32,646 nt of DNA from Myxococcales bacterium (GTDB lineage: Bacteria; Myxococcota_A; Polyangia; Polyangiales; Houyiibacteriaceae), in NCBI GenBank assembly GCA_012744445.1, contig JAAYBZ010000063.1, forward strand, positions 1 through 32,646. Reading direction: 5' to 3'. This document shows positions 2,342 through 5,856 of the stretch, piece by piece. Both the position numbers and the translations under genes were made by a program. Numbering within the stretch: position 1 is the stretch's first letter; each line of letters starts with the position of its first letter. Under the pieces are notes generated by a model. The model saw only the letters and a list, made by a program, of their open reading frames with translations. It was not told where the DNA came from and ran no database searches.

Positions 2342-3355
2342 TCAGCTCTTCTGGGCGACGAAGCGCGCCACGTCGAGCAGCCGCGCCGCGTATCCCCACT
2401 CGTTGTCGTACCAGGCTTGCACTTCGACGAGGGTTCCGTCCACGACCTGCGTGAGCGGGGCGTCGAACACGGCCGAGTGCGTATCACCCACGAAGTCCAT
2501 CGACACCAGGGGACGCTCCTCGTACGCGAGGATGCGGGCGAGGCGACCCTCGGCGGCCTCGCGGAACGCCGCGTTGATGGTGGCGGCGTCGGTGCTCTTC
2601 TTGGGGACGACCGTGAGGCAGGTGAGGCTCACGTTGGGCGTGGGCACGCGGACGGCCATGCCGTCGAGCTTCCCCTTGAGGTGCGGGAAGACCTCGGTGA
2701 CCGCCGTGGCCGCGCCGCTCGAGGTGGGGACCATGGAGAGCGCCGCCGCGCGGCCCCGGCGCGCGTCCTGCGAGTGCGTCCCGTCGACGAGGTTCTGATC
2801 GCCCGTGTAGGAGTGGACCGTGACCATGTGGGCCCGCTCGATGCCGACGGTCTTGTCGAGCACGTCGATGAGGGGCGCGAGGCAGTTGGTCGTGCAGGAC
2901 GCGTTGGAGATGACGTTGTGCTTGGCCGGATCGTAGGCGTCCTCGTTGATCCCGAAGCAGAGGGTGACGTCGGAATTGATGCCGGGGGCGCTGAGCACGA
3001 CCTTGCGCGCCCCGGCCTCGAGGTGCTGCGCGGCCTTCTCGCGCTTGCGGAGCCGGCCGGTGCACTCGAGCACCACGTCGACCTCGAGCTCGGACCAAGG
3101 GAGCTTCGCCGGGTCGGGGTTGGAGAGCATCCGCACGCGCGAGTTGCCGACGATCATCACGTCGTCCTCGACCCGGACCTCGAAGCCGGCGCGGCGGTGG
3201 ATGCTGTCGAACTCGAGCAGGCGCGCGAGCGACTCGGGGGGCGCGAGATCGTTGACGGCGACGAGCTCGATGTCTCGCGCGCCGCTCGAGAAAAGCTGCC
3301 GGGCGACGCTCCGCCCGATGCGTCCGAATCCGTTGATGGCGATGCGCTTGGACAC
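2342..3355 (-). CDS. gap: Glyceraldehyde-3-phosphate dehydrogenase, type I
   Basis: This enzyme oxidises glyceraldehyde 3-phosphate to 1,3-bisphosphoglycerate with NAD. The 337-residue protein has the Rossmann motif NGFGRIGR at residues 8-15. An Asp follows Asn in AVNDLA near residue 36, which fits NAD rather than NADP preference. The catalytic cysteine lies in SNASCTTNCLAP (Cys154), its partner His181 in HSYTGDQ, and the family signature WYDNEWGYA near the end. The start is a GTG with GGAGG about 5 bases upstream. It is the first gene of the operon and follows a readable promoter. Confidence 0.98.
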   Translation of the reverse strand: MSKRIAINGFGRIGRSVARQLFSSGARDIELVAVNDLAPPESLARLLEFDSIHRRAGFEVRVEDDVMIVGNSRVRMLSNPDPAKLPWSELEVDVVLECTGRLRKREKAAQHLEAGARKVVLSAPGINSDVTLCFGINEDAYDPAKHNVISNASCTTNCLAPLIDVLDKTVGIERAHMVTVHSYTGDQNLVDGTHSQDARRGRAAALSMVPTSSGAATAVTEVFPHLKGKLDGMAVRVPTPNVSLTCLTVVPKKSTDAATINAAFREAAEGRLARILAYEERPLVSMDFVGDTHSAVFDAPLTQVVDGTLVEVQAWYDNEWGYAARLLDVARFVAQKS

Positions 3356-3514: not shown

Positions 3515-3550
3515 GAAAACGAAAAGAGCCCGCGGCGGGGCGGGCTCTTT
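3515..3550 (-). terminator. Intrinsic terminator of the 64-residue gene
   Basis: A perfect 11-bp stem (3523-3533 with 3540-3550) encloses a 6-base loop. Read on the minus strand, the stem ends in TTTT and is followed by CGTTTTC, a fair U-tract. It lies 27 bp after the stop of the small gene at 3577 and upstream of the gap promoter, so it separates the two transcription units. On the plus strand the tail is G-rich, so minus-strand use is much more likely. Confidence 0.85.
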
Positions 3551-3576: not shown

Positions 3577-3771
3577 TCACTCGGCGGCTTCGGCCGAGAC
3601 CTGCGCGTCCTCGGTGACGAGCTCGAGGAGGGCGTTGGTGAAGACGACGATGTCGCCTCGCGAGTGCCCTTGCGACCGCAGCTCGCGGTAGAGCGACTTG
3701 GCGATGATGCGCAGCGCGCGCGCGTCGCCCGCCGGTAGCACGCTCTCCTGTTTACGGGCATCGATGGACAT
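3577..3771 (-). CDS. Small protein of unknown function under a sigma-54 type promoter
   Basis: I do not recognise this 64-residue protein. It starts MSIDARKQ and has an amphipathic helix around AKSLYRELRSQGHSRGDIV and a second helix FTNALLELVTEDA, ending in an acidic Ala/Glu tail. There is no signal peptide or membrane segment, so it is probably a small cytoplasmic helical protein, possibly a regulator or adaptor. An ATG ten codons upstream (3801) is in frame, but 3771 is preferred: AGGGAG lies about 11 bases before it, and the sigma-54 promoter places the transcript start near 3797, downstream of the longer start. A strong terminator follows, so the gene is a single-gene unit with its own promoter and terminator. 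Confidence 0.75.
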   Translation of the reverse strand: MSIDARKQESVLPAGDARALRIIAKSLYRELRSQGHSRGDIVVFTNALLELVTEDAQVSAEAAE

Positions 3772-3807
3772 TCCGGTTCCTACTCCCTGGGGTCGGCCCA
3801 TGTGGAA

Positions 3808-3823
3808 AGCAAGCTTCGGGCCA
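3808..3823 (-). promoter_or_regulatory. Sigma-54 (RpoN) -24/-12 promoter
   Basis: The minus strand reads TGGCCCGAAGCTTGCT. The RpoN consensus is TGGCACR-N4-TTGCW, so only one position (A to C) differs, and the invariant GG and GC are correctly spaced. The predicted start near 3797 gives a leader of about 26 bases to the ATG at 3771, with an AGGGAG ribosome site inside it. Such promoters require a bacterial enhancer-binding protein; none is encoded in this window. Confidence 0.8.
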
Positions 3824-3950
3824 GCGCGTGGGAGAAGGCAGAAGAGGGCGTCCCGAGCGGGCGGTCCGTCGATTTTCCGAGGATTTCCGTGAGTCGACCG
3901 TTGGATATGGAGCTTCGACGGTCACCCTTCCTCGTCATCCGTCCAGTTGG

Positions 3951-4002
3951 GTGCGAAGCGAACACCGCGGTGCGAGCCCCAGTGCGAAAGAGATTACGCA
4001 CC
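3951..4002. promoter_or_regulatory. Candidate enhancer-binding site cluster upstream of the sigma-54 promoter
   Basis: Three copies of GTGCGA occur at 3951, 3970 and 3982, a related inverted copy (ACGCAC) lies near 3996, and a 10-bp palindrome CACCGCGGTG spans 3963-3972. They lie about 130-180 bp upstream of the sigma-54 promoter, the usual distance for an activator site. This is inferred from position and repetition only. Confidence 0.3.
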
Positions 4003-4019: not shown

Positions 4020-4349
4020 TCAGCCCTGGTTGGACTGCAGGGCCTGCCGGACGGCGCTGGTGCTCTTGTCGACGACCTTGGTGAGGAGCTCGATCTCGCG
4101 CGCGGACCGGTAGACCGCCGCTTGGAGCGCGATGAGGTGGGTCGGATCGTCCTTCCGGCTCCTCATGCTGGCCACGAGGCTGCGTTCGAGGACGCGCTCC
4201 CCTTCGGCGACGCGCCCGAGGGTCTCGGCGAAGACCTCTCGGAACGAACGGCCGACGCCGGTGGGCGCCGAAGGGGGGGAGGCGCTGGAGGGGACGAGGT
4301 GCAGGGCTTGGGACGTGGGGAAGGGCGAGACGGAATTCGAGATGCGCAT
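4020..4349 (-). CDS. Protein resembling a type III secretion inner-rod (YscI/HrpB-like) or FliE-like rod subunit
   Basis: This 109-residue protein has a Ser/Pro-rich disordered N-terminus (about 1-33) followed by long helices. The C-terminal part, with HLIALQAAVYRSAREIELLTK and then VVDKSTSAVRQALQ ending NQG, follows the pattern of YscI/HrpB/EscI inner-rod proteins: a Leu-x-x-Gln stretch, an Ala/Val-Glu-Leu-x-x-Lys core, then Lys-x-x-x-x-Val and a terminal Gln. FliE, a related rod-like subunit, is the main alternative. There is no signal peptide, as expected for a type III substrate. The ATG lies 7 bp after the stop of the sigma-factor gene, so they form an operon. No other secretion-apparatus gene is in the window. 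The family call is from pattern memory, not a search. Confidence 0.6.
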   Translation of the reverse strand: MRISNSVSPFPTSQALHLVPSSASPPSAPTGVGRSFREVFAETLGRVAEGERVLERSLVASMRSRKDDPTHLIALQAAVYRSAREIELLTKVVDKSTSAVRQALQSNQG

Positions 4350-5238: not shown

Positions 5239-5856
5239 ATGTCCGTGAGGCGGCCCATCACCGATCGTCCGAGCGTCGCGCGCGCCGACCGAAAAGAGCG
5301 CGAGCGATTCCGCGCCATGGCGGTGAAGGCGGGCGATTGTCCGTCGACGGCCGACGCCTTCGCCTTCGCGTACCAGAGCCTCGGCGCGCAGGATCGCCTC
5401 CGCATGGCGCGCGCCGTGGCGCGCGATCTCCGCGGCTCCGGCGACGATCCCGGCCCTGCGCTCGCGATCTTCCTCGCCGTCGAGGAGGAGCCCGCGATCG
5501 TGGCCGAGCTCGTGACGATGCTCGGCCGGCTCGACGAAGGCGCGGCGCGGACGCGGGCGCGCGCGAGCTTCTTCGGCGGCAGCCCGCCTTCCGGCATCCT
5601 CCTCGGCCTCCCCAAGCACGGCGAGTGGGTCGCGCTCTTCATCGAAGACGCCGAGGTGCCCGAGGTGAGCCTGCTCCGCGCGCCGACCTACGACGAGCTC
5701 GAGCTCCGCGCCGCGTCGATCGTCGGCCGCGCCGCGCGCCGCGTGCGGCCCGACGAGGCCGCCGACGCCGCCGCGCCTCGACTCTTGCAACATCGCCGCG
5801 CGCGGGGAAGCTTGCCCCCGGGCGCGCGGGAATTCGCCGAGATCTTCTCGGTCTGA
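5239..5856 (+). CDS. Protein of unknown function
   Basis: I do not recognise this 205-residue protein. It begins MSVRRPITDRPS with a basic N-terminal third (ADRKERERFR), then a mixed alpha/beta region with LRMARAVARDL, LAIFLAVEEEPAIVAELVTML and SGILLGLPKHGEWVALFIED, and ends ...REFAEIFSV. No signal peptide or membrane helix is evident. The ATG at 5239 is chosen because it opens the plausible protein sequence; a GTG two codons upstream is also possible. An AAGGAGG at 5206-5212 is 20-26 bases from either start, too far to be ideal. It is transcribed divergently from the sigma factor and lies 31 bp before thrB. The long minus-strand reading frames across it look like codon-bias shadows. Confidence 0.65.
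   Translation: MSVRRPITDRPSVARADRKERERFRAMAVKAGDCPSTADAFAFAYQSLGAQDRLRMARAVARDLRGSGDDPGPALAIFLAVEEEPAIVAELVTMLGRLDEGAARTRARASFFGGSPPSGILLGLPKHGEWVALFIEDAEVPEVSLLRAPTYDELELRAASIVGRAARRVRPDEAADAAAPRLLQHRRARGSLPPGAREFAEIFSV

Follow-up and report, generated by a model that had tools for sequence, protein, structure and literature searches.

A small-protein gene of Myxococcota with a conserved predicted sigma-54 promoter and paired putative activator sites

Introduction

Among the described systems that come closest to the locus studied here, the Sda and Spo0E-like regulators of Bacillus are conditionally expressed proteins of about 45-85 aa that consist of two antiparallel helices, and the CP12-type regulators of GAPDH are small, disordered proteins switched by disulfides. 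For the control of transcription, two sigma-54 systems of Myxococcus xanthus are the nearest. The NtrC-like response regulator NmpR acts at sigma-54 promoters through two dyad-symmetric upstream sites (GCGCA-N5-TGCGC), which are preferably 14-15 bp apart, and its oxygen-use regulon comprises several operons (PMC11841059). The Nla28 regulon is characterized by the promoter consensus TGGCACG-N4-TTGC(T/A) and by tandem half-sites CT(C/G)CG(C/G)AG (PMC9765219).

Here, we analyse a stretch of 32,646 nt (the window) from a Myxococcales bacterium (GenBank assembly GCA_012744445.1, contig JAAYBZ010000063.1), for which an initial annotation had proposed a 64-aa protein gene with its own sigma-54 promoter and terminator. 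Based on comparison with related genomes, the predicted protein, its candidate promoter and a pair of putative activator sites, which the annotation had overlooked, are conserved together across much of Myxococcota.

Results

The features of the locus are listed in Table 1.

Table 1. Features of the small-gene locus in the window, with the basis for each
Feature	Sequence	Position	Strand	Basis or remark
Distal predicted activator site (UAS1)	GGTGCGTAATCTCTTTCGCACT	3981..4002	-	15/16 to GGTGCGWA-N6-TWCGCACC
Proximal, weaker predicted activator site (UAS2)	ACCGCGGTGTTCGCTTCGCACC	3950..3971	-	11/16; 31 bp from UAS1
Sigma-54 -24/-12 promoter box	TGGCCCGAAGCTTGCT	3808..3823	-	Match to TGGCACG-N4-TTGCW; kept in relatives
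Predicted transcription start		3797 +/- 2 nt	-	12 nt after C of -12 GC; inferred from box
Ribosome-binding-like site	AGGGAG	3783..3788	-	About 11 nt before ATG; sequence
64-aa protein gene	MSIDARKQESVLPAGDARALRIIAKSLYRELRSQGHSRGDIVVFTNALLELVTEDAQVSAEAAE	3577..3771	-	Start 3771, stop 3577; homologues and AlphaFold2 model
Intrinsic terminator	AAAGAGCCCGC-loop-GCGGGCTCTTT, then TCGTTTTC	3523..3550	-	Sequence and folding energy
gap (glyceraldehyde-3-phosphate dehydrogenase), first of gap-pgk-tpiA		2342..3355	-	Named from translations by inspection

An alternative in-frame ATG lies upstream of the 64-aa start, at 3801. Since the predicted transcription start is downstream of it, the start at 3771 is favoured, in agreement with the earlier proposal that the promoter decides the start codon. 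The AGGGAG site just upstream of the ATG also stands at the right distance from the box, as had been claimed, and TAGGA, which is closer still to the ATG, could be the ribosome-binding-like site instead. The terminator, with an 11-pair stem and a T-run about 26 nt past the stop codon, proved as strong as had been supposed (-26 kcal/mol for the folded region, z -3.5) and closes the unit. By a strict rule, terminators were found 3' of 24 of 129 homologues and never in composition shuffles. With homologue start codons picked by rule, the ATG in genus g11 (loci L009 and L011-L031) follows the predicted sigma-54 start by about 5 nt, and the transcript there is predicted to be nearly leaderless, a point against the proposed unit.

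A search with the window protein found it in 33 of the 34 genomes of its own family, nearly always as a single copy. For the class and the phylum, a profile built from 17 members was used, which matched 215 of 290 class genomes, that is, 101 of the 146 genera sampled in the class, and 93 of 284 sampled genomes phylum-wide. The carriers include Sandaracinus sp. NAT131, Myxococcales bacteria SG8_38 and UBA1660, metagenome-assembled genomes (MAGs) of Sandaracinaceae and Kofleriaceae, and a few MAGs labelled Syntrophaceae or Deltaproteobacteria. A single-sequence search of the contig database gave no matches, while the alignment-based search did find relatives.

The box fits TGGCACG-N4-TTGCW at 11 of the 12 specified positions; the match to the RpoN consensus noted initially is therefore present, while its count of 15 of 16 includes the four N's of the spacer. 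With GG and GC in N10 spacing, and a host that encodes RpoN (one rpoN gene, with one Sigma54_DBD match at 9.6e-68) as well as activators (about 16 strong Sigma54_activat matches), the box has the marks of a sigma-54 promoter at the level of sequence. In its own whole genome, sites with at most one mismatch number 24, against 33 for the reversed control pattern, so the box taken in that genome alone is not significant and no better than chance. This count favours reading the box as a chance match and the ORF as something other than a sigma-54 gene. The box becomes significant because it is conserved upstream of the homologues: without demanding GC, at least 10 of 12 positions agree in 108 of 131 homologous loci (82%) against 0.9% of 4710 background windows, where loci and not independent events are counted, the homologous loci being related and the background windows, from the same contigs, sharing that relatedness. 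The corresponding figures are 48% of the 131 loci against 0.02% of background windows at 11 or more positions, and 125 of 131 against 10% at nine or more; after the over-sampled genus g11 had been thinned, 80% of loci still reached 10 of 12. The conservation check suggested by the initial annotation thus came out in its favour, protein and GG-N10-GC box both being kept in relatives, most of which are MAGs. As the box and the palindromes described below are kept upstream of homologues across families and classes, a chance match appears extremely improbable.

Under a stricter rule (GG and GC invariant, at least 10/12, no more than 200 bp upstream), 96 of 133 loci have a box. The same rule is passed by 0.5% of 4815 background windows from the contigs that hold the loci and, on the opposite strand, by one locus (0.75%). 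The misses belong mostly to family f2, probably Polyangiaceae, in which many loci read TGGCACG-N4-TTGTA or close to it, GT standing in place of GC; for example, L142, L153, L154, L183, L214, L144 and L143 have a perfect -24 element and TTGTA or TTGTT at -12. The apparent absence of the box in f2 arises largely because GC is demanded at -12, and the view that f2 lacks it was rejected as largely an artefact, most such loci carrying TTGTA or TTGTT. Scans for strict GG-N10-GC overlook these f2 promoters. Some lineages speak against the proposed unit. In family f18, where pgk is still the neighbour of the gene, the box is weaker (4/8) and palindromes are few (1/8). Two of the four Deltaproteobacteria-labelled members reach 10/12 for the box, and this group is without the GGTGCGWA-N6-TWCGCACC palindrome.

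The palindrome emerged when every dyad in 90 upstream regions was counted without bias and compared with background; the dyad GGTGCGTA occurred in 32 of the 90 regions against 0.08 expected. Since the consensus was drawn from the same loci that it scores, the evidence lies in the contrast with background rather than in the raw score: 56 of 131 loci reach at least 14/16, compared with 4 of 3634 background windows. Measured from the box, UAS2 begins 148 bp and UAS1 179 bp upstream, and the score of UAS2 is weak alone, being reached by 17% of background windows. In relatives, the site is commonly present twice, at a spacing of 31-35 bp, and lies about 60-230 bp from the box on its upstream side. 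In a pattern search, the core of UAS1 (3982-4001) is the only W-type zero-mismatch match to GTGCGNA-N6-TNCGCAC in its own genome, where one other exact match has C/G at the W positions; over the phylum, the exact palindrome occurs in 48 of 361 genomes and the reversed control in one. Box and palindromes together provide the cis-elements of NtrC-type sigma-54 control. Two putative dyad-symmetric sites lie within 50-250 bp upstream of the box, the nearer of which is weak.

The arrangement resembles that of NmpR, which belongs to the same phylum and whose spacing of 14-15 bp is comparable to the 31-35 bp from start to start of the 22-bp sites here. However, the half-sites are in the opposite order to those of GGTGCGWA-N6-TWCGCACC, and NmpR serves several operons, whereas the site in the window has no second match of its kind in the genome. 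The Nla28 regulon shares the sigma-54 consensus and has tandem activator half-sites, but CT(C/G)CG(C/G)AG does not resemble the window palindrome. Literature searches returned nothing relevant for the palindrome motif or a matching small protein.

Among 30 exact-site loci that were read, nine place the site upstream of the small gene and the others elsewhere. In L263, L264 and L269 (near position 1500), palindrome and -24/-12 box stand before a second small protein, which reads MRPAVLAAAFAF... in L263 (..RWLDRRRE), and by eye a TM2-like membrane protein comes next in L263 and L264. In L252 and L253, the palindrome and a sigma-54-like box lie upstream of what is, by eye, a phosphatidylserine-synthase-like gene.

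The protein family shares the core RAxxILAKSxYRELxxxGxxxxxIVxLxxELLxLVT, with R18, I22, A24, K25, R29, E30, G35, S37, V42, F44, L49, E50 and T53 invariant in the alignment. AlphaFold2, given a 44-sequence alignment, predicts a two-helix hairpin (helices 14-33 and 38-63) behind about 13 disordered residues, with a mean pLDDT of 85.7 and values of 94-98 over residues 21-60. The small hairpin is probably cytosolic, with conserved residues on both helices. The window protein had no match over the curated cut-offs of Pfam and NCBIfam, and the 44 members gave weak scattered matches only. Several candidate relationships were rejected. That is, the Spo0E-like phosphatase profile (PF09388) reached a best E of 0.09 in two of 44 members, SQELD being absent and the window protein reading TNALLEL; the TAL/BurrH DNA-binding repeats owe their low whole-chain E-value to the summing of many short matches, single matches of 12-15 residues each having an i-Evalue of about 490 or worse; and PhaZ7 and other PDB sequence hits were weak or additive artefacts. 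Foldseek found no match in the PDB at E<=10, which says little for a small hairpin, and the proposed mode of action consequently rests on size, fold and analogy.

In the family, the small gene is directly upstream of gap-pgk-tpiA in 17 of the 19 loci checked, and gap or pgk also follows in families f5, f8, f11, f13, f15, f17, f18, f21, f23, f24 and f29 and in one f49 locus. Families f2, f4, f6, f14, f26 and f32 and most other classes lack the linkage and yet retain both protein and promoter. The position directly downstream of a sigma-28-type operon, stressed in the initial annotation, is found in the window and kept in some genera only, the conserved context being gap-pgk-tpiA. In f2, an FHA-domain/secretion-ATPase-like gene is often seen by eye 3' of the small gene. 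Nearby in the window, a 109-aa protein (4020-4349, minus strand) is encoded downstream of the FliA/WhiG-type sigma factor gene and resembles type III secretion inner-rod proteins only weakly (E 0.014, short of the curated cut-off), and a 206-aa protein (5239-5856, plus strand) that adjoins the sigma-factor gene is conserved in relatives.

This neighbourhood bears on two alternatives. The sigma-54 promoter might serve gap-pgk-tpiA, the small ORF being a leader or attenuator peptide, as the conserved order and the distances of 100-500 bp to gap or pgk would suggest; we regard this as improbable, because the amino acids are conserved across the phylum, even where gap or pgk is not adjacent, and because a strong terminator stands between the ORF and gap in the window. 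Alternatively, the hairpin might bind and adjust GAPDH, PGK, TPI or the way they assemble, whenever less or more glycolysis is called for by the sigma-54 signal, somewhat like CP12, with which it shares small size and conserved vicinity to gap. The linkage in the family and in further families speaks for such a target. The families and classes without linkage, and the terminator that parts the two genes in the window, speak against it, as does the protein itself, which has no cysteine and is predicted to be a helical hairpin (CP12 being compared by description). We consider this reading unlikely; a link to these enzymes is possible, not general.

As for the activator, comparison of the window's own genome (G000) with G009, G024 and G340 left two response regulators that are clearly orthologous to proteins of another class; they are encoded on contigs C86 and C163. 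The conserved NtrC-like regulator at G000:C86:5183-6589 (HTH ..ISRKSLQxKMKEL..) can be put forward only tentatively, as a weak candidate. Two further genera of the family, as well as another class, have a counterpart that is its reciprocal best hit and keeps the recognition helix. Among genomes at least 90% complete, about 4 of at least 143 carriers of the small gene lack an ortholog of the regulator, against 16 of 43 non-carriers (Fisher p about 1e-8; ortholog threshold of about 1e-137 set by eye), a correlation that spans related and hence non-independent lineages. G012, the sole family genome without the small gene, also has no such ortholog. However, the regulator is present in many genomes without the small gene, and the C163 regulator also has an ortholog in the same other class.

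In the region G000:C163:13000-18000 (L288, L298), this second NtrC-like response regulator adjoins gspC- and gspD-like genes, in front of which lies a one-mismatch sigma-54 box (C163:15382-15397); type II secretion may be under sigma-54 control in G000. Two other activators were rejected. An FHA-type activator (G000:C126) keeps a syntenic place 2-4 kb away from the small gene in several f2 loci, but it also occurs in several genomes that lack the small gene, and it is further argued against because g11, without a clear ortholog, keeps box and palindromes. With an L286-type activator, which lies close to the small gene in f43, the reason was that f1 and f43 do not share a conserved putative recognition helix.

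Discussion

The best explanation, which we hold to be probable, is a free-standing, activator-dependent sigma-54 unit whose hairpin product probably binds another protein. The case for an enhancer-controlled sigma-54 unit is strong in terms of cis-elements, and the activator-dependent control proposed initially for a single small gene is strongly supported by the joint conservation of protein, box and palindromes. An NtrC-type enhancer-binding protein would bind the two tandem 22-bp palindromes (4002-3981 and 3971-3950), loop the DNA to the sigma-54 RNA polymerase waiting at 3823-3808 and open the promoter. The resulting mRNA would be short, begin with a leader of about 26 nt, encode one 64-aa protein and stop at its own terminator before gap.

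The suggestion of a regulatory or developmental protein found no such footing, since there is no functional homologue and nothing links the protein to development. By analogy, we lean slightly towards a dose-controlled regulator that binds another protein, similar in action to Sda and Spo0E-like proteins and identical to neither. Size and predicted helical hairpin are alike, whereas no significant profile match was obtained (Sda not being listed), the SQELD motif is absent and the promoter is of another type. A phylum-wide module, in which one conserved NtrC-type response regulator acts through a dedicated enhancer and the hairpin adjusts central carbon metabolism or two-component signalling, would be a speculative extension to which we give little weight. 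On that reading, the occurrence of palindrome and box, in other classes, also before the second small protein and the phosphatidylserine-synthase-like gene would suggest an envelope or nutrient response.

The putative activator-site pair is previously unseen, and the predicted protein is without relatives of known function. Small proteins can seldom be traced past the genus, while here one can be tracked across a phylum, and its regulatory address with it, namely the putative activator sites and the promoter, plus the terminator in some lineages. The change from GC to GT at -12 in the sigma-54 promoters of the Polyangiaceae-like family offers a conserved test case. Since protein, promoter and site pair are conserved together, what began as a guess from a single sequence is now a regulatory system open to test, in which the reader of GGTGCGWA-N6-TWCGCACC, the signal that it reports and the partner of the hairpin can now be sought.
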